From NCBI GenBank assembly GCA_001051155.2, contig JYIP02000009.1, positions 620,001 to 684,000 on the forward strand: a stretch of DNA of 64,000 nt, written 5' to 3'. Both the position numbers and the translations under genes were made by a program. Source of the stretch: Chrysoporthe austroafricana (lineage: Eukaryota; Ascomycota; Sordariomycetes; Diaporthales; Cryphonectriaceae). Below are positions 4,963 to 19,116 of this stretch, piece by piece. Numbering within the stretch: position 1 is the first letter of the stretch; every line of letters begins with the position of its first letter. Under the pieces are notes generated by a model. It ran no database searches. It had not been told where the DNA came from and worked only from the letters and a program-made list of their open reading frames with translations.

Positions 4963-5685
4963 TAGAAAATAGAAAACATTCAAAGTGCCGGATTATATGG
5001 CCCAATGGACCCCGTGTATGTATCAAGTGCATTTAGCAAATCATCACAACGACACGTCGTTTGTGGCCGAGTTAACGAGGAGAGGGGCTCTCCTGGCGTA
5101 TGAGCTGGCTCATCTGGGGTTAGTGAGCATCTGCCTCGTCATCAAGCGAGCCCGAATTAGGTGCCGGAGGCAGTAGCCCCAGCGGATCGTGAGCGCTAAG
5201 ACCTGGTCCATAATAATACAGGAGGCGTCGACGCGGGGGCTGGCTGCTCCGGGGACCGCAGAGAGTACGCTAGCTGGCTACGTTAAACGCCTGTATATAC
5301 GCATATGTCGTCAGATATGACCCGCAGCATGAGGAATCAGGATCGTGTCAGGGGTGCCCGACAGGCTCCTTCAGGTAGCAGTAAGAAATAGATTATCCAC
5401 GCTGCAGCTGCAAGCCCGAAGCTGCTAGTCCAGGTACGCAAGTGATCCCCCTGTCTTGTCTTCCCTGCGCCCTGCTGTCTTACCGTGCGTCACGAGACGC
5501 GCACTTAGCTCTGGTTTGTTCTCGACCCCTGCGGTTCCACCCGGCCCGCGCCGCCGTGTGCTAGCTAGGAGGAAGCTGTTCGTCCAGACCCCACAGCTCC
5601 CGCTCGAGTACCCGAGTACCATGGTATGTCCAGCCCCCGCAGCTCTTACTCGCGCATGGCGTGTTGTCACCGAACCCACACCGCA
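4961..5685. other. gene-free stretch
   Basis: Sequence between the poly-A block and small-gene copy A. I see no feature I can support. Confidence 0.4.
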
Positions 5686-6384
5686 TCACGTCTCCCGTGT
5701 ACCGCGTCCGGAAGGACGGCCTCGGCTCGTGAGCTGGCCGGCGAACTGCGCGCCGATGCCGAGGAGGAGGTCGTCGACCGGCTGGGGGCCGGCGCCGGCG
5801 ACTGTACCTCTCACGGCCAGGCAGCGGGGCGCCGTCGGGGCAGGCCCGGGCGACGCAATAGCCGGACCCCTTCCACTGTCCTGAGAGGCATGTCCGCTGG
5901 TGTGGACAGGAATGCCGGGAGGCGCAGCGGTGTTGGCAGGCGTAGGGGTGGGATGCTGAGCGTGGCCCTGCTGCGATCCTGTCTCCTGGTCGCCTCCGAT
6001 TGCGCTGCGGCTGGAGTATTAGACCCGGCTCTCCCCAAGAGGTGAGGCGTAGCGCCTAGTGGCGCTGCAGAGTGTCTGAAGATGGAGCTGCCGCTGGCGC
6101 CCACTGTTCCTCACCGGGGGATAGAGGCAGCGAAAGGAAATAGTTGTGTAAAGAGGAACCAGGTTACTCAGAGCCATCGCTCTCAGTGTAACAGCGGCTC
6201 CGCGGTATCGAATCTTGAAGACTAAAGCGAGCGCCGCATGGTCCCGGTTGCGAACGCGACGAGAACTTTCCCGACAAGGTGTAAAGAGCGCCTGAATTTA
6301 AACGGTGAAAGACGCAAATCGGATATGGAAAATGGAGTGAACATGCCTTGACGGAGCCGAACCCTGCAGTGCCCGGGCTGACAT
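5686..6384 (-). CDS. small hypervariable-family protein, copy A
   Basis: A two-exon minus-strand gene: exon 1 is 6384-6347 and exon 2 is 6010-5686, giving 120 residues. Exon 1 encodes MSARALQGSAPS and ends AG. The 336-nt intron ends in a CTAAT branch site and CCAG, and exon 2 begins with C, so the split codon is AGC (Ser), exactly as in copies B, C and D. The donor reads GC (AG|GCATGT) instead of GT, so this is either a GC-AG intron or a mutated donor. The middle is rich in Pro, Gly, Ala, Gln and Ser (for example HPTPTPANTAAPPG). Residues 95-104 carry the family motif LLGIGAQFAG, followed by a 16-residue tail. No signal peptide or membrane segment is seen. Function unknown. The match of exon phase, split codon and both conserved ends to the other copies is the evidence. 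Confidence 0.65.
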
Positions 6385-6860
6385 TTCTGTTGTGATCAAG
6401 TCCCTGAGTTAGGCAGGACGGCGAAGGGGTGCAGGCAGGTAGGAGTTGATAGGTAGCCTTGGGAAAAAAAACAGGCAACCGATGCGGAGAGCCTGGAATT
6501 GAGGCAGTAATCTAACGAGGGAGCGTCCCTGGGGCCAGGAAGACTTGAGGACTTGTTCAAGTTGATGTCGTGATCCGTGGGTAGTTTTCTTCATAATCTG
6601 CCTACGAGGGGGCCATATAGAACAGGTAGGTACTGTATCTTTAAGCTTGAAGTAAAGGTAAAGATAAAGAGTCTAAAGAGATGTAAGGATGATAGTGGTC
6701 GGATGAAGGGTCCTATACAAGATGTAAATATTCACTTTGTTAACTCGCTTAGATACTTGGTGAAGATGATCATTAGGGTTCTTACAGATAGTGCTACTTC
6801 ATTGGGCGTAAAGACCCTGTAGCGCCATGCAGCTGGCGTGATTGGGTTGCATGCTCCAAC

Positions 6861-6959
6861 ATATCCAACATATCCAACATATCCAACATATCCAACATAT
6901 CCAACATATCCAACATATCCAACATATCCAACATATCCAACATATCCAACATATCTAAC
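6861..6959. repeat. 9-bp minisatellite (ATATCCAAC)n
   Basis: Ten perfect copies of ATATCCAAC run from 6861 to 6950, followed by a variant ATATCTAAC. Two more perfect copies resume at 7100-7117 on the far side of the hairpin element, so the element sits inside the array. Confidence 0.95.
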
Positions 6960-6962
6960 ATA

Positions 6963-7068
6963 CCCGGACCCTTGTTTACAGCAAACCAGGGCTGTGGGCG
7001 CCTACACCCACACCAGGAGTACTATTAGGCACCCACAGCCCTGGTTTTGCTGTAAACAAGGGTCCGGG
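6963..7068. repeat. near-perfect inverted repeat (hairpin) inside the minisatellite
   Basis: The left arm 6963-7002 and right arm 7028-7068 are reverse complements over about 40 bases, with one mismatch and one extra T, around a 25-bp loop. The loop sequence with its edge (6996-7027) is repeated directly at 7066-7097 with two differences. The direct-inverted-direct arrangement resembles a small non-autonomous element or a fold-back duplication. Confidence 0.9.
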
Positions 7069-7136
7069 CGCCTACATCCACACCAGGAATACTATTAACA
7101 TATCCAACATATCCAACCATCCAATATGATCCAACG

Positions 7137-7149
7137 TAACCCTAACCCT
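7137..7149. repeat. telomere-like motif
   Basis: The sequence TAACCCTAACCCT is just over two units of the fungal telomere repeat (CCCTAA/TTAGGG), about 20 bp beyond the minisatellite. It is too short to be a chromosome end. Confidence 0.7.
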
Positions 7150-9202
7150 GTATTATGTAATGTTGGACCCGGGCTAAAGTGGTACATACTGAACCGGCTG
7201 TTCTCGGGACCTTTCCGATTCTAAGTCATAATACCAAGCACCCATCTCACCGAATGACATACCACGTATAACCATACTGATACAAGGACTAAATGGAGAA
7301 AAAAAGAAAGAAAGAAAGAAAGGAGAAGAGAAGGGAGAAGGCTAAAAAAAAAAAGCCGGTCATAGTCCGATTGATTCTACGTGGTTATGCAGCAAGCCGC
7401 ACCATAGGAACGTTAGATCCGGGCCGCAGGCAGCTAAGATGGTGAGCCCTAGCACCAACAGCACGCAGGTGCGGCCGCGGTCGCGCATTGCCCGAGTAAG
7501 CTCGGGCGATTACGCCTCCGATGCGCCCACTGGTGCTCCCTTGCGTCGCCGGGAGGGCGGCGCGGGAGTGTGTCCTTGACCTCCTGGCAGCGCCTGAGGG
7601 GGCCACATTCGGCGCAAGCAGGTTGCTGATGCGATGCTGATGAACGTGCAAGCCAGCTGCCGGGGTGCCGCAGCCCGCCCGCCTCGAGACATAGCATAGC
7701 TTCCATCCGGCGTCCTTTCCCACCCGTCTAGGAAATGGCTGCACGCCAGCAGGCCTCGGAGCCCGATACACCAGTTCCGATCAACTACAAATCGGGACTA
7801 CCACACGTCTGAACCACACCCGGGTTTCATTCCCAATTACGCGGCTCTAGCACGGCATGGAGATATCTTAATAATCAGGTGGGCTGAACTAGCTCCACTT
7901 TGACGGTTCTGAACCGCGAAAGTGGAGCCATGACGATATCTACTGGTAACAGGGGTTCTCAGCGCGCGGGGGCTAGTACCAAGCGCTGAGGACCCTGTCG
8001 CCGGCAAGACAAGCGCGCGGACCCGGTAAGCATAAGGACTCCTTGCAAAGGGGATAGTGATTGAATTGAAAACCTCAGATTCTGCCTCTATATACCTGGA
8101 CTCGATCACCATAAGGCTCGTTAATGATTAATAGCAGGCGGTGACTACTCTTCTATGAGCATTACAATTTCTTTTTTATTACCGAGGAACCAACGGGTCT
8201 AGGGAGACAGACGAGCTTATCGATGCAAAGACTGGATGCAACATGACTGAGTCCCAGAAGGTATCTGCGGTAATGATGGAGGAGCCCTAGCAGGGCTACT
8301 GAAAGATAATTTGCGTCGATAAGCTAGCGCAAGTGGAGTTCACTTCGGTGAAAGTGGCGAATGTTCGTCCACGAGAAATACGGAATGGAATCGAGCTTTC
8401 AGGGCCTCAATGTCAACGAACGCGGTCCTGCTAACCCAAGCGTCATACTATGTACCGCTGATAGCTACTGCAACATATAGGCGGGGGCCGGTTTGCACAA
8501 TGACTTGCACATGACCAGATTTCGGATGAAAGCAAGGTTGAACGTGTTGTTTACCGCGTACTTAGCTGGGGATGGGTCAGTGCGCGCGCGCCCGCTCGCG
8601 AAAAACAACCCTGAACCCCCCCCCCGCCGCGGGAGAACCGTGTAAGATGATTGGGTAGAAATTTCCCTAATAGCGTATAGAAGCCCTGAAAAGATGCGGC
8701 CGGACCCTAGGCCGTACGTATAACGCCCCAAGTCTAGTAAAACCAAAAACCAAACGATTCGTCGAAAACTGTGTGGCGCTGTATAAGGGAGTCCCTCTCC
8801 CCCCGCCACCGCCCGGGCTGCATAAGGACCAAAGTGGTTTTTCTTTGGAGCGTTTCGCAGGCCGGAACGCTGAGACCCAATACCGGTTGGCCCGCCCCGC
8901 CAACAGCACCGGCACCCCATTCTAAACCGAGCCCTCGTGGATATCCAAAGATACAAATGAAACCAAGAACCAAAAGAAAAAAAAATTGGACCTCCAGAAC
9001 GCCGGAATCCATTAATCCCTAGTGGGTTTCGGCGCCTAGACGACGTCGGCGCAGGCAGACCCCGGCGGCCCCAAGTGGTGGTGGTCAGCAAGTTGGGCTG
9101 CGGCGTTGCTGCTGCCGCTGCCGCTGCTGCTGCAGATCGACATCAGCGTCAGCACGCATCGCGCGGTTTGGAGGGGGGGGGCGGTTGGTACTGACAAGAA
9201 TC

Positions 9203-9983
9203 TCATTGGCCGTATCCGCGCCAGTAGCCGGGGCCGGCGGCGCCCGGCGGGTAGCCCTCGAACTGGGCGCCGATGCCGCGGAGGGCGTCGGCGCGGGCGC
9301 CGGGGGCCTGCGCCGGGGGCTGGCCGGTGGACGACGCCGCGTGTCCTCCGGCGCCGGAGCGCGGGCCGGCGACGCCGTTCACTGCGGCGGCGGGGCGGTG
9401 CTGGGCGCCGTGCGCGTGGGGGGTGCGCCAGGTCGCGCTGGGGTTGTACTCGCTGTTGGGGGGGGGGCAATCAACTCGACCGCATCAGCCACGGCTCTAA
9501 GCGCAGGGGGGAGGGCGACTGGCGACCCAGTCTTGAGAGACGACGAAGGACTACAGGACAGCTTGGGGAAAAAAAAAATTGTTGGTCGAGAGAAGTCTGC
9601 GTCAAGCCGCTGCGAGCCAAGAGCACAGTCAAGGTGGGGATGCAGGTAGAGAAAGAGGATCACGGTCCGAGCAGCCATGATGCTCGAGGGCATGGGACAC
9701 GGACGCACCTATCTGGAGAAGGGACAGGCCAGAGGGTACGCGTCCCGTCCAAGGTCCGCGGAGCATACAGGTCACCCAGCTTTGCAGTAGAAAGAAAGAC
9801 GGGGCCCCAGCACAAGGAAAGCCGGTTTACACAGATCACAGGAAAAAAATCATCCTCATGAGAGAGAGAGAGACAGCCCCGACGTGGGGGGAGGGGGGCG
9901 CAATGCACCGAAGGGGGGCAGACTGAAGAACGAACACAAGTATACCTCGTCGCGGTGGAACCTTGCTCCGCCTGGGTAGACAT
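9203..9983 (-). CDS. small hypervariable-family protein, copy B
   Basis: A two-exon minus-strand gene: exon 1 is 9983-9946 and exon 2 is 9452-9203, giving 95 residues. Exon 1 encodes MSTQAEQGSTAT and ends AG|GTATAC. The 493-nt intron contains a CT microsatellite and ends in a CTGAT branch site, a C-run and AACAG. Exon 2 starts with C, completing an AGC serine. The middle is rich in Gly, Ala, Pro and His. Residues 69-79 are the family motif ALRGIGAQFEG, followed by a 16-residue Gly/Tyr/Pro tail (YPPGAAGPGYWRGYGQ). No signal peptide or membrane segment is seen. Exon lengths sum to 288 nt, a multiple of three. Exon 1, intron phase, split codon and motif all recur in copies A, C and D, which makes chance unlikely. 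Function unknown. Confidence 0.75.
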
Positions 9984-10490
9984 GCTGCCTGCGACGCCTG
10001 GCTTTTAGAAAGACAACAGCGGACGCGTGCCGATAAGGGACCGTAGTAGTTCGGGACGAGACCGACGCGTCTCAGGAGGGCACAATGGCGTAGGATGTGG
10101 TTTGGGGGGGGGGGCGATCGATCGTGTGCCAACGTGGCTGCTGAGGGACAAGGGGGGGGGGAATAAGTAGATAATGAATGATTGCGGGCGGGCGTGCGAT
10201 GATGCGCGGCAGCTGGAGAAAATACCAGTATCATGGCTGGGGCAGTCGCTCGGTTTATATAGTCGGACTGGAAGGAGAGGTGTCAACGCGCGCGCCGTTG
10301 TATCTTGCACCTACAAGGCTGAGACAGCGCGATCCGTCTCGACCCCCCCAGAGCCCAAGTAGTATCGAGTACCTGCGGCATTAGGAGATCACCGGTCAGG
10401 CCAGTCAGGCAGAAATGGGACACGCCCACACCCACACCCGCGTGCAGCCAGCGCTCGGATCGCCAGCGAGGCCAGGAGGGCTGGGCTACT

Positions 10491-10520
10491 TGACCGGCTG
10501 ACCGGCTGACCGGCTGACCG
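10491..10520. repeat. 8-bp tandem repeat (TGACCGGC)n
   Basis: Just under four tandem copies of TGACCGGC in non-coding GC-rich sequence. Confidence 0.9.
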
Positions 10521-12552
10521 CTGCTGTCCCTGCCCAGTCCCGGATCTCTGGGATGGGGCGGGCGGCGGCGCACCCCCTGTTATGGCCCTTGTTCGCGCTG
10601 CAAGCAGTTTGGCCGTTTCCCCCACCGGTGGGCTCCACCGCCAGGGCCCCACCTTGTTAATCTGTCCACGATCCGTGACACCTGTAGGATATCCATCTAT
10701 CAAACATGGGGAGGCATGGACCACACACACGCGCGCGCACACACGCAACATACACGCACACACACGCATGTACACCACCACCAGCACCGCTGCGGCTTCG
10801 CGCAGGGAAAAAAAGCAGTTCGACACACACCCACGCCCCTGACCGCCAGAGCAGCACAGCAGGTGCTCCCGCCTCGGCCCTCGCAAACGACTGGCGGTGG
10901 GGCGGAGCGTCGCTGGCCCGCAACGGCACGGCACCCCCCCCCCAGAGCGGCGCGGATTGGCGCGCAGGGATGCACGTCATTGGGCCCCCCCTCCGTCCCC
11001 TACCGTCGCCTGCGCAGATGGGGAACCGAGCGCGAGGCAGCCTTGGGGCCTCGGGGACTGGCCCCAGAGTTGCTATTCTCGTGTGTTTGAATCTTCCCCT
11101 GGCTGCTGCGATCTCGAGGCCTGTCCCCCGCAGGCGCGAGGCCGGCTGACTGGCGGCTTTCTGCAGCCTGAAGGGCCTCGGGCTCGACGCTCGCGCTGAT
11201 CAGGTGGGACGGCGTGCCTGATCTGCACCGAGACAGCTCGAGTGATTCCAGAGCCGCAACTGATCTCGAAGCGGTGTTGTCTCTATGGATGGAAATACGG
11301 AGATAGGGTAGTGGGAGGGGGGGTGAGGCCACTATGCTCCCCTCCCCTCCCTCCAGAAGGTGGTGCAGTGAGGCCAGCATGCTCCCCTCCCCCAGAATCT
11401 CGTAAAGTGCCACATGTCCGCACTGTCTGCGCGTGAGGGGATGGGTACAGCCGATCCGACCTGAGCGGTGAGGACCTGTTCGCGGCCTCGATTCATACAC
11501 TGCATCCGAGGGGCGGCGGGAATCCATCGTGTCGCCGTCCGCAGGAGGCACATGCAGGGCGCGTCTTGCCTCGAGGTCGAGTTCGAGATAACCGACGTGA
11601 CCTGTAACTTTTGGGGCGACCACGACCAATAGCGGGGCCCGCCGGGGGCCCCAAGGACAGCGGGTCTGGGGGGTCGGGACCAGGAGTGATAGGAGGATGT
11701 GTCCAGAGGGCTTCTTGTACCGCTCTAGGTGGCTAGTCCCGCCTGGCGCTGCCCTCGGCCTGCCAGAGACCCTGGTCGAGCGCCGCGGGAAATGCCACAC
11801 CAGCAGTAGGTCTCACTCACCGTGCGGTCCATAGAGCGTCACGGCCCTGCCTCTGCCTCCGGAGCCGTCAGCAGGCCGCACCACCCTCGGACGACACGAG
11901 CTGCTGCTGGCATTGCTACTGTACCCAGGTACCCTGCGCGGTTGGCTGCCAGGAACTGCACTTCTGCTGGAGATTTCAAGGCGGCCCCCCCCCGGCTCCC
12001 CTTTTTTTACGGCCAACCGCGCGATGCGAACAGCGCGGTCCTTGGTTCTTGCATTGCGCCCTCCGAGCGGTAGTACAGGTCACGGGACTGCGCGTTGGCC
12101 AGCGCATCGCCAAGGGGGGGTGACGTCTTGTCGCGCAACCGTGCGCGCGCGCACACCTGGCCTACCACCGCCTGGTATTCGCCACCGCCTGAGACCGTCC
12201 GCGTTGCAAGTTTCTGCACTTTTGCTGTTCCCCGGGCAGGGACTGGGGGATCGGGGAGCGCAGGCGGGGGTTGCCGGATGGGACAGCTCCAGCGGCGTGA
12301 TATGCTGGAGGTCGGGAGGGCCAGGTAGCGTTCTGCGGGAGACGATGAGAGCGTTTGGTCTCGAGGGCTGCTCTCCCACGGCAGGGCGGCGCCCACATTC
12401 CGTGGGATCGGTGGGATCTGTGGAACGACACAGCATGAGGATATCGTTGCCTGCCAGCGGACGAGGAAGAGGCGTTGAGAGGCGTTTATGACGATGATGG
12501 AGCCCGCCTAGGCCAGCGGGGCAGGCTGGCAACCCACCAGACAGAGAGACAG

Positions 12553-12557
12553 GCGGG

Positions 12558-12588
<31 letters not shown>
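12553..12588. repeat. GGCA tetranucleotide microsatellite
   Basis: About eight copies of GGCA, followed by degenerate CAGACAGTCAGACAGG units. Confidence 0.9.
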
Positions 12589-13967
12589 ACAGTCAGACAG
12601 GCACGCACAGACAAGACACTGCCATCTGGTCCCGCCGGCCCTGAGCGTGGGAGCGGCCCGGAGGTGTGCCATTGCTACCGAGGAGCAGACCGGGGGCCCG
12701 GCAGCGGAGCTTGACCGGATCTGGAGGATGGCGTGCGGGCCCGCATCCCGCAGCGAAACGTTTCGTCCGCTCGCCACGCGACGGCCAATGGATCGCGGGT
12801 GGCAGACGGGTCCGCTCATGCGGGTGTTCACGAAAGGGGCAGAATGTGCATTTCGGGGCTGGGCGCCGCGAGGGGGCTTGGACCCCCACGAGAAGCCCAC
12901 TTGCTCTCCTGGACCGGAACTCGTACTGTGGTGCGTCATAGGAAACAGCGCGCTCGATCACACTCTTACCATATGCTTACTGGTTCTCCGCAGCAGGGCA
13001 TGGGAAATTCAGTGGGTGTTGGCCCTGTCCGACTCCCTGTAGCTTCAGAGACACGCCGATATATGCCGTCTTCGGAACCAGATCTGTGTCGAGTCTGAAA
13101 GCCCGAAGTCGATCCCAAGAGCTGATTGCAATATCCGGCAGGGACGGACTTACATCTGTTGCGTGTGCTTTTCTCCTCTTTTTGTTTGGTCCCCTTCTTC
13201 TTGTCCAGGGCCAGGGCTGCTCAGCTCATCCCAGAGCTGAGATGCAGCTAGGCTCAGTATGGCACGGCTCGCGATCCCTCAATACGATGTCTTCCCTGTG
13301 ACGGTGGCATCCGTGGCATCATCTCGACTGGGATCCCCCGTTGCATCATCACACGACGTGACCGACTTAGTTGGTTTGGCGAAGGTACCGGTGCGAGGTC
13401 CCTCCCACAGCGAGCCAAGAGTCCCCGTCACCTTTGCGCGACCTGTCGACTGCCTGGGCCAGTGGAGCCGCGGCGGCCACGGCAGGCGGCGTCGAAAGGG
13501 CCATCACGCATGGTCCTACCCTTCCCACACGAGTCACCAGGGACACAATAGTAGAGGCTGTGCCGAGTCAGTGGGCTCTCTCGTTCCCCACCGTCGGTCA
13601 ACACGGCGCAGCCGGGCTCGTCGTACGTGCAGCAATCCCACGACCCGCCGCTCATCCTCTCACCGTCGCCAGGGGATGCGGGAGGTACTAAAAGTACGGC
13701 TCTGCGTCCCGCGGAGATAGCGCTCTGTCATCGCCCCGGCTCGAAGGGGGGAGGGGCTGGTACGGCGGCGCACCACACAATCTGCCCACCTGCACTGCGC
13801 TGTTGTTTCTCGAGGACGAAAGCAAGAGGGCCACCGCCTGGGAGTTTCGGCCGCACGACGTCACCTCGCAGCGACCTGCTTCTTCTTCGCGGGGCATGCG
13901 ACGCCACCCGCCGCTCGACGACCCCAAGGCCCCGCCGGCGTGTCCTCGCCAGGTCCCTTCGTGCGAC

Positions 13968-13988
13968 CTCTCTCTCTCTCTCTCTCTC
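13968..13988. repeat. CT dinucleotide microsatellite
   Basis: A run of about ten CT units in non-coding sequence. Confidence 0.9.
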
Positions 13989-14965
13989 ACAACGGCCAGG
14001 GGCCCCGCCGCCGTGCAGCAGGAACGCTTGCGCCATACGGCTGAACCGCGACGGCGGCGGGCAGGGCCGGGCTTCGCTGGGACGGCGTAGGCCGCAGGGG
14101 ACCGGCCAAAGAACTGGCTCGCGCTAGAGTATTGTCCCAAGCAGGCGTGCATGCGTGATGCTCGGGCTTTTGCCCAGCGCTGGCAACCTCCATCCCTGCG
14201 CTGCGGCGTTCAGCCCGGGTGCGCATATGCAGCTTCCCTGCCTGTCTTTCTCGAGTCCCGGCCCTCTTGGATCTCCCCGCCTCGAGCCCTCCAGGGAGGA
14301 CGATATGGTGCTCTCCTGCGAGGTTCTCGCGGTGGATCGGCGCCGCGCAGCAGGCTTCGCAGGTGCCCCCGAGGCTCTCGCTGCTCATGGCAATCTTTTT
14401 TCTCTCCGTGAAACCTTATCTACGATGATCGTGGAATCTGAGATTCAGATGGGTATACGCACCTTCGAGCAGGCTGTGCTGTGCTGGGTTACGCCGGTGC
14501 GTGGTTCGTCATGCAAGACTTCGAGCGGGCTGCATTGCTTTCGGCCAGGTGCCGGCGGCAGCACACGTCTCTTGCGCACGTCCCGGCGGTGTCAGCTGAA
14601 ATTGCATGTGATTAGGCTCAGCGCTACGAAACTGGTCAACGCGTGTGGCCAGGGCGGCCACAGCTGCACGCAGGTGGGTAACCCAGAGCATGGGTCGCCG
14701 TCCCGCATGGCTGCTGCTGTTGCTGGTGCACCACCGGCCGACCGCCTGTCCGTCCGTGCCCTGCAGCGCCTGGGTACGACTTCGGCCAGGCAGCTGCGGT
14801 GTCGCGAGGAGGGGAGAAGAGAGAGGGTTCCTGTCGCTGCCTGTGGCGTGCAGCCCCCACCCCCAGGCCGGCGCCAATCTTGTGTCGGTGTGCTGTTGCT
14901 AGCGGCGAGACATACTCTAGAGGCGCCCATCGAGAGCACGAGTCTCGCACTCGAGCCAGGATGGC

Positions 14966-15029
14966 ACCTGGTCGGACGATAACCTGGCCGGACGACAACC
15001 TGGCCGGACGACCACCTGGTCTGGCGACC
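14966..15029. repeat. 16-bp tandem repeat, four copies
   Basis: Four tandem 16-bp units with core ACCTGGCCGGACGACA. The outer copies carry one to four substitutions. It lies in non-coding sequence. Confidence 0.9.
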
Positions 15030-16038
15030 GATCCCCCAGTCTGGTCCTGTGGCGGCACGGTCAAGGTTCGCTACCGGTTTTCCAGGACGACGGACGGGCG
15101 AGCAGGCGGAAGCATCCCGCGAGAACTGCAGCAGTGCTTCCCCAGACGGTCGTCCAGCTGACTGGCAGGGCTCCATGCCATGCCGCACTGCCTGGAGCTT
15201 GTCGTGCCGGGGCGTCCAACCCCCATGCTCTGTCTGCTGCTAGCACGGCTGCGCGCACCCACCGCATGTGACCCTGAAATGATGTTCTGCAGGCCAAGCT
15301 TCTCCTACGGTACTTGCATTAGCTGTCGGCGGCGCTACGGGAATATCGCCGGATTCAGGCGCCCCGTCTGTCGTCTCCGGGTTTACGCTCCCAGTTCTTG
15401 GCGCTTTCGCCCGGTGATCGTCCCACCGGAGGCGATTCAGTCCCCAGACCGCTGCTAGCAGCTTGTGGCCGTCGACCACGCTGGGCGGCGCCGGAGAGAG
15501 CATGGCCGCGCGAACAAAGAGCCTGTGTCTACCCAGTATCCGGACCTATAGAGTTCTTTCTGAGACATAACCGGCTAACAGGAGATACCTGGGTCCATGT
15601 CGCTGCCAATAAGCAGTAGATTGGTGGAAGCCTTGGGCTCCCTGGCCGGTCAAGCAGGCACTTGGCACGTACTATGTACACAGTCGATCTTGATGTGGGT
15701 ACTCGATGTACTGCACAGGTTTGACAGCCCTATGCAACCTTGTCCTGCCGTGCTGCCGTGGGTCCGCCTCTGCCCCTCCACCTAGCTATCCAGTACGACC
15801 CAGTAGGCCCGTGACGTGGCCCGCTTACTCAAAGTACATAGTACATCAACCCGATGCCATGAGCCTTGGTCCCAACGCGCGACCACTGAGCAAACCCGCT
15901 CATGCACGATGCCCCACCTGTTGGATGTCAACTTTGATTTTTTTTTTTCTTTTCCCCGTTTTGTAATATCCCTTTTTTTCTTCCCGTGCACGCACCCCAC
16001 GGCGACCGAATGGGGGAGGCTTACATACATAATAGAAC

Positions 16039-16718
16039 CTAACGCCGGCAGACAGGCGGCTCGGCCTCGCCGTCGCTGCAACGCTGCCCCTCGAACTGCG
16101 CGCCGATCCCGCGGAGGTCGTCGTGGCAGCTGGCCGCGACCGCGCCGCCTCGAGGAGCTGCTGCTGCTGCTGGGGTTGTCGTTGACGGGCGGGCCTGCTG
16201 GGCCCCGCCGGTTCGCTGCTGCTGCGGGGCGGTGGGCACCGCCGAGGGTTTGACCCCGTGCGCGCTGCAGGACCCAGTAAACGTCAGATGAGACTTTAAA
16301 CTTAGTTAAAAAAGAAAAGCAACGCCCAACCCCTCCATCCCCCCCACGCTGACCGACGGAGACGATATAGCGGGCGCAGCACGTCCCGCGCCGTCGAGCC
16401 TGCAGCGCGAGGCTGCGCGGTATGGGTAGCTCAGCCGCGGCGGCCCCGTGTGGGGCCCTGCGGCATGGGATGGACCACTGGCCGCAGAGGCGTGAAGGGC
16501 AGGCAGGGCAGGCAGGGCAGGGCAGGGATGGCACGACATGTCGGCACTGGGGGCCGGCAGCCGAGAGCCGTCGCCGGGGTGGCAGGCCAGAGGCAATCAA
16601 TTCCTGCGAGCTGGGCTGCTCCAGTCCGCAAGCGGGTACCGGCCCCAGGCAGGAGGCCCAGATTAGAAATCGGGAGGACGTACCTCGTAGCTGAACCCTG
16701 GGTCGCCTGATCGGACAT
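16039..16718 (-). CDS. small hypervariable-family protein, copy C
   Basis: A two-exon minus-strand gene: exon 1 is 16718-16684 and exon 2 is 16264-16039, giving 86 residues. Exon 1 encodes MSDQATQGSAT and ends AG|GTACGT, an excellent fungal donor. The 419-nt intron ends with a CTGAC branch site 20 nt before CTGCAG. Exon 2 starts with C, again making AGC (Ser). The middle carries Gln and Ala runs (PTAPQQQRTGGAQQ, TTTPAAAAAP). Residues 59-71 are HDDLRGIGAQFEG, followed by a 15-residue tail. There is no signal peptide and no membrane segment. Exon lengths sum to 261 nt, a multiple of three. Its exon 1 differs from copy D at a single residue, while the two middles are not alignable. Function unknown. 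Confidence 0.75.
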
Positions 16719-18506
16719 CACCGCGACGGACGCACGATTTCTTGGGGCCGGGCTGAAGATGGGCTGAGGAGTTGGGGGGGGGTTAGGGGGAATGTACAGG
16801 AAGCCGGCGAGTTGCGTACGGGATACGGCACAGAAGAAGAGATATGGTGTTAGGTGCAGTGCAGGGCAGAGGATGCCCTCAGTCTAATGTCGGTAGTCAA
16901 CGAAAAGTCGTCAGGGTTGAGATAGATCTCGGCAGGGACTAGTAGACGAGGAGGTTAGCTCGCACGAGGACGAACGACGAACGGGACGAAGATGAAGTGC
17001 ATTAGCAGGTGGCGACAAAAGCCTCTTATATCTTTTTAAACAGTGTCGTCTCCTCATGCGTGTTTGCCTTTTCGAGCCACCCGACCTGCTCAGCGCTAAA
17101 CATCGCAAAACCCCTGGACGTGCTCGACTCGCATGCCACAGGCCTGCGACAGAAGACGGTGAGAAACAGACGACGCCATAGCCGATGCCGCAGGGGGCCT
17201 TTTGTGCCCTAAGGCCGGGATTCGCGCATGGAGGCTGCCACACGGGCTGTTGCGGGGCCAATCCGCGGCCGTCGTGCGACGTGAGCTTCGACAATTCCTG
17301 CCAAGGCCGGTATACCGAAGAGCCTCATCGCCAGGGCTGAGCTGCTTCGCGCTCGCGCGCCCCACGGTCTCGTGGGATCCGTTAGGGGGTCCCGCCGTGG
17401 CTCTCGCTGCGGAGCGGTGACGGGCCCACGGGGGGGGGGGCGAGCGAGACCACCGCCGTGCGTGTGACGTCTCGAGGGACCTGGGGAAAAGCGGGTAGGC
17501 CTTCCTCTTCAGAGCAACCGAGCTCGAACAGAAATATCTGGGCCCTAAGCACAGCCCAGCCCAGCCCAGCCCAGCTACTGATCGTGCGTCCGGGCGGTCG
17601 TGGGGAGCCCTCGTGACGTGGCACTGGCAGTTATGTCTCACCCGCAGGGCCAGGAAGCACAGCAGGAGAGAAGCCACACGGTTGTGTGATCATGGGCGCC
17701 GATCTGGCCCCCATCAGATCTCTGCGGCTGGGCCCAGGGCCCGGATCGTGGGAACAGGGCCCGGCGATTGGGCCGCAGCATGGTCGTGCAGCTCCCTGTG
17801 CCGTACAGACCACGAGTCTCTCGAGACATTCGGACCCCTGTCGGGGCAGGCAGGTGGAGAAGGGAAGATCTTCTAGAACCTGGCCGGCCCACTGCGGCTG
17901 CGCAAGGATGGTTGCGTCAAGGGACGAACCAGTGGGCTCCTCGAGGCCAGCGTGATCTGAGCAGCAAGCATAGTTGCTGGGGTCGAGCGCGGGCTGAAGA
18001 CCAGGGCAGCCTATGCCCATGTACTACTATTACTCTGGTGCAAGGGGGTGGGGGGGTGGCCGCTGCATACCGGGGCCGAACCCTTACGCAGCGCTAATAC
18101 TGCAAGCAAGCGAGAATATCACATCGAAGATGGATACAGGAAGGAGGGCGTCGTGAACTCGAGGGAGACGGTCTCCAGGACACGATCAGGAGCTTGGCCA
18201 GTCGAGCAGACGATTCGAGGTTGAATTGGCAGTTCTTCTGCTCTCTTAAAGCAGGGATGTTCCCGGCACCCTACCGCGCTCTGCCGTCCCACTCCGGCCC
18301 GCGCCGCCGAGGGCTAAGGCCCTCCGGGGGTCCGTCCTCGGCGCCGGGACAGCGCTCTCCATGCGTGCTCACCACGACTGACTGAGCAATCCGCAGCAGT
18401 GATGCTTTCTTTCCTCGCAGCGACATGTCAGTTGTATGCTACATAGACGACGGGGCAGGAGGGGGTGGGGCGAAATAAGAAATTGACTGGTCTATTCTTA
18501 CCGGTT
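16719..18506. other. gene-free stretch
   Basis: GC-rich sequence between small-gene copies C and D. It contains a run of about four CCCAG units at about 17551-17575 and a G-run at about 17432. I see no gene. Confidence 0.4.
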
Positions 18507-19116
18507 CTATCGCGCAGTACCCTTTGCGATGGAGTCATTCGCCAAGCTTAACTCGAATTGCCCACCGACGCCCCGGAGTGCATCTTCTTGGCGCTCCTGA
18601 GCAGGTGCTCCAGCGTATCCCGTCGTGGCTGACGTCGGGGGCGTCCCCCCACCCTGGCGCGCCGGGCGCTGCGATCCCTGGACACCACCCATTACGGCGG
18701 TGCCGACAACTGGGTTGCTGAGGGCAGACCCATGTCAGTCCTCTGGAGCCACAAAATCGTCGGGGCCGAAAAGGCAGCACTGAGGCCGGCCGAGATGGCC
18801 TCACGATGCTCATGCTCGGGCGCTCGGGCGCTCAAACCAGGCGAGCGAGCGCGAGAGAGCGCTCGTCTTGGGAAGAACAACGACGGTAATGAAAGAGCGA
18901 GACGCAAGCGGGAAAAACACAAAGAACAAAGAGGCAAACGACACAGCACGAGTCCCCACTAGAAGCCAGAAGCCGGAAATTGCGCGATGAGGGTTAGGGC
19001 AACAAAGACATAAAAGCCAGCAGCAACATACAACGAGATCAGAAACAGGATGAAGTGATTTAATAAAGTAGAATATCGTACCTAGTAGCAGATCCTTGAG
19101 TTGCTCGGTCCGACAT
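18507..19116 (-). CDS. small hypervariable-family protein, copy D
   Basis: A two-exon minus-strand gene: exon 1 is 19116-19082 and exon 2 is 18717-18507, giving 81 residues, the shortest copy. Exon 1 encodes MSDRATQGSAT and ends AG|GTACGA. The 364-nt intron contains one GGGTTAGGG telomere-like word and ends with a CTGAC branch site and CCTCAG. Exon 2 starts with C, restoring AGC (Ser). The middle is rich in Gly, Thr, Gln and Ala. Residues 57-67 are EDALRGVGGQF, a slightly diverged form of the family motif, followed by a 14-residue tail. There is no signal peptide or membrane segment. Exon lengths sum to 246 nt, a multiple of three. Function unknown. Confidence 0.72.

Follow-up and report, generated by a model that had tools for sequence, protein, structure and literature searches.

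Lineage-restricted (orphan) families of small disordered proteins occur in fungi, and in dikaritin-type ribosomally synthesized and post-translationally modified peptides (RiPPs) a UstYa-type oxidase is encoded beside the precursor gene. Here we describe four small genes, g1 to g4, in a stretch of 64,000 nucleotides (nt) of the Chrysoporthe austroafricana genome and compare them with these and other known systems. The stretch, called the window below, comprises bases 620001 to 684000 of contig C22 in a genome of 48.15 Mb and 22 contigs. Coordinates are those of the window unless a contig is named, and all four genes lie on the minus strand. An earlier, sequence-only reading of this DNA had proposed a family with conserved ends and hypervariable middles. 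We put at about an even chance that g1 to g4 are protein-coding genes that arose by ancient duplication and encode small disordered proteins, in which a loosely constrained spacer carries two docking motifs.

MSDIN precursors are described, in the part of the article available to us, as peptides of 33 to 37 residues with a core of 6 to 10 residues, two processing prolines, and the enzyme POPB, and GC-AG introns are reported there in four MSDIN genes of Amanita bisporigera (PMC5159998). Two linear motifs also invite comparison. The SHP box of p97/Cdc48 cofactors has the consensus h(x)1-2F/W(x)0-1GxGx2L (PMC5389986), and PAM2, which binds MLLE domains, has the consensus xxLNxxAxEFxP (PMC9249222), both as given in the excerpts available.

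Results

Four two-exon genes with paired terminal blocks

The four genes look like real members of a so far undescribed family. In-frame splice models, enumerated within the limits of the script, reproduced four two-exon genes at the places predicted from the sequence, each with the proposed start; in the chosen models, every intron is in phase 2 and splits an AGC codon. The exons are as follows.

6347..6384, minus strand: g1 exon 1, start block MSARALQGSAPS, GC donor AAG/GCATGT
5686..6004 (alternative start 6010), minus strand: g1 exon 2, end block 5743-5766, stop TGA
9946..9983, minus strand: g2 exon 1, start block MSTQAEQGSTAT
9203..9452, minus strand: g2 exon 2, end block 9260-9283, stop TGA
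16684..16718, minus strand: g3 exon 1, start block MSDQATQGSAT
16039..16264, minus strand: g3 exon 2, end block 16093-16116, stop TAG
19082..19116, minus strand: g4 exon 1, start block MSDRATQGSAT
18507..18717, minus strand: g4 exon 2, end block 18555-18578, stop TAG

First exons measure only 35 to 38 nt, and the proteins span 81 to 120 residues. Spliced lengths of 288, 261, and 246 nt for g2, g3, and g4 agree with those given earlier. For g1, the 120 residues of the sequence-only reading hold with the first of two in-frame acceptors, the one chosen there; the second, 6 nt away, gives 118. The g1 donor, GCATGT, would make its intron GC-AG. A CTRAY branch site had been claimed for every intron, and a single one does occur within the final 60 nt of each, at positions -18, -36, -23, and -21 for g1 to g4 (g1 counted from the second acceptor). 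The introns have a T content of 0.22 to 0.34, which drops abruptly to 0.06 to 0.15 in the second exons. The enumeration returned 54 in-frame models for g1, 38 for g2, 61 for g3, and a single one for g4. Because many other in-frame models are possible, those chosen for g1 to g3 rest on splice-site quality and agreement with g4.

Each protein keeps a start block, M-S-x-[QR]-A-x-Q-G-S, and an end block, L-x-G-[IV]-G-[AG]-Q-F. We searched for both as DNA patterns in strict and relaxed versions, with reversed patterns as controls. In the window, the degenerate patterns for the end block and the start block each matched four times, against none in 100 shuffles. Genome-wide, the strict end-block pattern gave six matches and the strict start-block pattern seven (reversed controls 0 in both cases), four of each in the g1 to g4 cluster. 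The relaxed start-block pattern matched 27 times (control, 4), and two relaxed end-block patterns matched 6 and 11 times (controls, 0 and 4), with 7 matches of the latter pattern outside the cluster versus 4 in its control.

Pairing of the blocks was restricted to the cluster. We counted a start and an end block as paired if they lay at most 1,450 nt apart, on the right side and on one strand, taking the relaxed set as start-block loci (n = 27) and the union of the strict set and the two relaxed sets as end-block loci (n = 12). At these patterns, only g1 to g4 qualified (4/27 start-block and 4/12 end-block loci). A fifth two-block gene was found neither with strict and relaxed patterns across the whole genome, a pattern-based search in which more diverged members could be missed, nor in a motif scan of the window and 60 kb of flanking sequence (40 kb and 20 kb on the two sides). 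The proposal of a fixed motif at each end fits the layout.

Conservation of the ends and age of the copies

The ends are kept at the amino acid level. Over the 21 block codons, g3 and g4 share 17 residues and only 4 codons, and 15 of the 19 nucleotide differences fall at third positions (P = 6e-5). An excess of third-position differences is also seen for g2-g4 (P = 0.006) and g1-g4 (P = 0.02), so that the conservation claimed between paralogues is significant for the three pairs that include g4.

In local alignments of the introns and of the 400-nt upstream regions, no pair went beyond the shuffled controls: the score of the strongest upstream pair, g2-g4, in which 15 nt directly ahead of the start codon match, was reached by 9 of 200 shuffles, and that of the strongest intron pair, g1-g3, by 21 of 200. 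Second exons scored above all 200 shuffles in local alignments of g1-g2, g1-g3, and g2-g3; with g4 as partner, the scores of g1, g2, and g3 were reached by 84, 16, and 9 of 200 shuffles. In global alignments, g1-g2, g2-g3, g2-g4, and g3-g4 exceeded all 100 shuffles and g1-g3 and g1-g4 did not. Because no intron or upstream pair scored beyond shuffled sequence, the duplications look old. The ends of the copies have been preserved as protein, and the comparisons with g4 show this best.

A middle probably under loose constraint

The middle had been described as rich in Gly, Pro, Ala, Gln, and Thr. In the four proteins, 65 to 71% of the residues are G, P, A, Q, T, or S, and 9 to 16% are hydrophobic. 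Defining the middle as the part of the second exon cut just before the end block (163 nt in g2, 142 nt in g3), we found the g2 and g3 middles to be alike at the DNA level; their score was reached in 6 of 500 shuffles by codon and in 5 of 500 by dinucleotide. For the five other pairs, similarity was not detected (at least 65 of 500 shuffles reached the score). Of the 40 bases in the g2/g3 alignment, 30, in one block of 23 and another of 7, are read in different frames and 10 in the same frame. DNA similarity with mostly different frames is expected of a loosely constrained spacer, and this modest evidence suggests loss of constraint in the g2/g3 middle rather than selected change.

Searches for known families and predicted structure

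The view that no described family resembles g1 to g4 was supported by protein, family, and literature searches, apart from one subthreshold match. Against Pfam, no family scored above cutoff for any of the four proteins, the only match being LPD22 on g3 (one of four genes) at 16.5 bits versus a cutoff of 28.6, and NCBIfam gave no match for any of the four. A search of a database of 5.8 billion proteins returned nothing at an E value of ≤10, either with the four proteins or with a query from which all but the blocks had been removed; sensitivity was limited, as word-sharing candidates numbered 2,726 for query A1 and only 1 for A2. The database does hold annotated fungal proteins, as shown by a control query, the NmrA-like protein of the window, which found fungal relatives, the best among the matches listed (at least 120) being a protein of Cryphonectria parasitica EP155 with 88% identity. 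Cryphonectria is placed in the Diaporthales.

A sequence search of the PDB gave one match, to g3, with an E value of 0.1, and none with the end-block peptide of an open reading frame (ORF) on contig C1 (L005, described below). No publication was found for the string GIGAQF, the strings LRGIG and QGSAT led only to unrelated subjects, as judged by title, and searches with general and Cryphonectria terms revealed no such family among the titles listed. AlphaFold2, given the second exon of g3 together with those of its three paralogues, gave a mean predicted local distance difference test (pLDDT) value of 59 and a predicted template modeling (pTM) score of 0.14, with no strand and no helix of 4 or more residues. 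On inspection of the sequences, no hydrophobic signal stretch was seen at the protein starts.

Other features of the locus and of the genome

Two of the genes are followed by a similar element.

5529..5563, minus strand: element downstream of g1, 23-nt core, one of two places in the genome
18281..18316, minus strand: element downstream of g4, same 23-nt core, the other place

The similarity extends over about 36 nt (local score of 45, against a largest value of 25 in 200 shuffles). With up to 2 mismatches allowed, the 23-nt core pattern occurs at these two places only, both without mismatch (reversed control, 1 match). The best match to the element downstream of g2 was reached by 12 of 300 shuffles and that downstream of g3 by 242 of 300. 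In contrast to the coding blocks, the two copies share an identical 16-nt core, and this suggests a role at the DNA or RNA level or a later exchange between them. The element is preceded by TAG, a possible splice acceptor, and a possible phase-1 donor lies near the stop codon of both genes. We considered the element as a third coding exon of g1 and g4 and rejected it, given the identity of the 16-nt core and the lack, on inspection, of a CTRAY at a fitting distance.

G+C content is 0.62 to 0.65 in the four 2-kb steps at positions 10001 to 18000, versus 0.46 to 0.60 elsewhere in the window. At 6855 to 7147, a nine-base tandem repeat (TCCAACATA) lies beside a 23-nt perfect inverted repeat and nested copies, near a CCCTAACCCT stretch; these repeats may be the remnant of a small repeat element.

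The end block alone may occur in further proteins: candidate ORFs, one on C1 and one on C21, have it at their end. The first, L005 (G000:C1:737083-737256, minus strand), is exon-like, rich in S, T, D, E, and Q, and ends in ...DLLGIGAQFEYRE and a stop, with its end block at C1:737095. No start block was found upstream of it. Among several conceivable splice models for it is one whose first exon has 44 nt and ends in phase 2. L005 is a possible distant relative. On C21, L006 (G000:C21:1591099-1591122, plus strand) has an end block in an ORF that ends in ...LLGVGAQFSGTGDASSRNKKN and a stop, and again no start block was found. A 181-codon open frame, L053 (G000:C16:4760386-4760409, minus strand), has an extreme C terminus, ...ESDLIGVGSQFWY, close to the end block. 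Seven of the eight end-block matches outside the cluster have a stop within 19 codons, a proportion near chance (by our own estimate, about 0.6 per match) that we did not use as evidence. Within the genome, the g2 second exon found itself and weak matches with E values of 0.135 and 0.798, and the L005 exon found itself and one weak match with an E value of 1.12.

Discussion

The reading that we prefer joins observed features to a proposed mechanism. Gene structures, pairing of the blocks, conservation of the blocks at the amino acid level in the g4 pairs, and the lack of a confidently predicted fold are the part that comes from sequence; from these, we infer that both ends dock to a putative partner. 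The proteins would be disordered, with no evident secretion signal, and each would keep its two blocks as short linear motifs joined by a Gly/Pro/Ala/Gln/Thr/Ser-rich spacer whose letters, and partly whose reading frame, have drifted. Each motif might bind in a groove on a folded, conserved intracellular partner, so that the protein would act as a two-point tether or a competitor, with the spacer setting its reach. A stricter form, in which selection acts on nothing but the two terminal docking motifs and leaves the middle free enough to change frame between paralogues, seems to us possible but rather doubtful. With the same reserve, and as part of the same reading, we suggest that families of this type are easily overlooked because of the very short first exon and the low-complexity middle.

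Several observations weigh against this reading. The third-position excess is not significant for g1-g2 (P = 0.33), g1-g3 (P = 0.26), or g2-g3 (P = 0.09). The frame evidence comes from one of six pairs and 40 bases, 10 of them in the same frame, and its probability is about 0.06 after allowing for six pairs; the five other pairs of middles show nothing, and the g2/g3 middle is low-complexity DNA. AlphaFold2 was run on four sequences, which alone lowers confidence in any predicted fold. Finally, the end block lacks defining residues of each known docking motif class that we compared, the SHP box and PAM2.

The last point bears on an idea that we consider improbable, namely that the end block belongs, as a variant, to one of these classes, the Cdc48/p97 SHP box or the PABP-binding PAM2 motif, which would make the proteins cofactor peptides of the machine concerned. 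Measured against the consensus in the available excerpt (PMC5389986), the two invariant glycines of GxG are present in 4/4 end blocks and the spacing fits, but in 4/4 Leu replaces the aromatic residue before GxG and Phe replaces the final Leu. PAM2, taken likewise from an excerpt (PMC9249222), shares a Leu and a Phe seven positions apart, as in 4/4 end blocks; Arg or Leu stands in place of the Asn after Leu, Gly in place of Ala at +4, Gln in place of Glu before Phe, and Gly or Leu in place of Pro at +9. Somewhat better placed, yet still unlikely in our view, is the model of the sequence-only reading, in which the ends anchor the protein and the middle takes part in recognition under diversifying selection. 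Conserved ends and poorly alignable middles would suit it; the similar low-complexity composition of all four genes and, to a modest degree, the g2/g3 DNA shared mostly in different frames argue the other way. That g1 to g4 are decaying copies or chance open frames, their ends left over from duplication, strikes us as very unlikely: the GC donor of g1, the many alternative models for g1 to g3, the unusual composition, and the absence of homologues in the database searches could all be read in that sense, but all four frames are open in the given models, and in the g4 pairs the residues have stayed although codons changed, whereas alignments of introns and upstream DNA do not rise above shuffles.

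We also think it quite unlikely, a shade less probable than a variant SHP or PAM2 motif, that g1 to g4 encode RiPP precursors, with leader, variable core, and follower, in a layout like that of the MSDIN genes of Amanita or the dikaritins of ascomycetes. The presence of several copies and of an intron speaks for it, as do a variable middle between fixed ends and the GC-AG intron of g1, of the kind reported in four A. bisporigera genes in the available part of PMC5159998. Set against what that part describes, the g1 to g4 middle has about 50 to 80 residues rather than a core of 6 to 10, the intron follows the start block rather than lying near the last codons, and prolines marking the ends of leader and core were not recognized, the first Pro after the start block being at residue 11, 17, 18, and 14 in g1 to g4, positions that do not coincide. 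On inspection, no repeated core was noticed. An exon-by-exon search of the genome with PF02897, the sole prolyl oligopeptidase domain sought, gave no match. UstYa (PF11807) gave 50 match rows in the genome; none adjoins g1 to g4, and C22 carries a single one, at a distance of 1.3 Mb. The UstYa rows are spread over several contigs, with several close together on C4 and C16, groups that may mark dikaritin-like clusters.

If two-point docking on a loose spacer is the right explanation, a gene family would be escaping common searches despite its sharply kept ends, and it would offer a direct test case of disordered spacers that lose sequence and frame while terminal motifs stay fixed. Should the two-block layout also occur in other Diaporthales, it would represent a class of two-point tether proteins invisible to ordinary homology search. 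The start and end motifs could serve as ready-made bait peptides for finding the partner.

Compared with known systems, g1 to g4 resemble the MSDIN genes of Amanita, as far as the available part of the source describes them, in forming a multigene family with short conserved ends, a variable part between them, and introns, GC-AG introns among them. They differ in length, with 81 to 120 residues here and 33 to 37 there, and in the intron that directly follows the start block. The SHP box (binding segment 1), to the extent that its source was available, shares with the end block a GxG core with flanking hydrophobic residues at matching spacing. The orphan families of small disordered fungal proteins are likewise small, of low complexity, clustered, and without detected homologues; g1 to g4 are set apart from them by two sharply kept terminal motifs and a phase-2 intron directly after the first.

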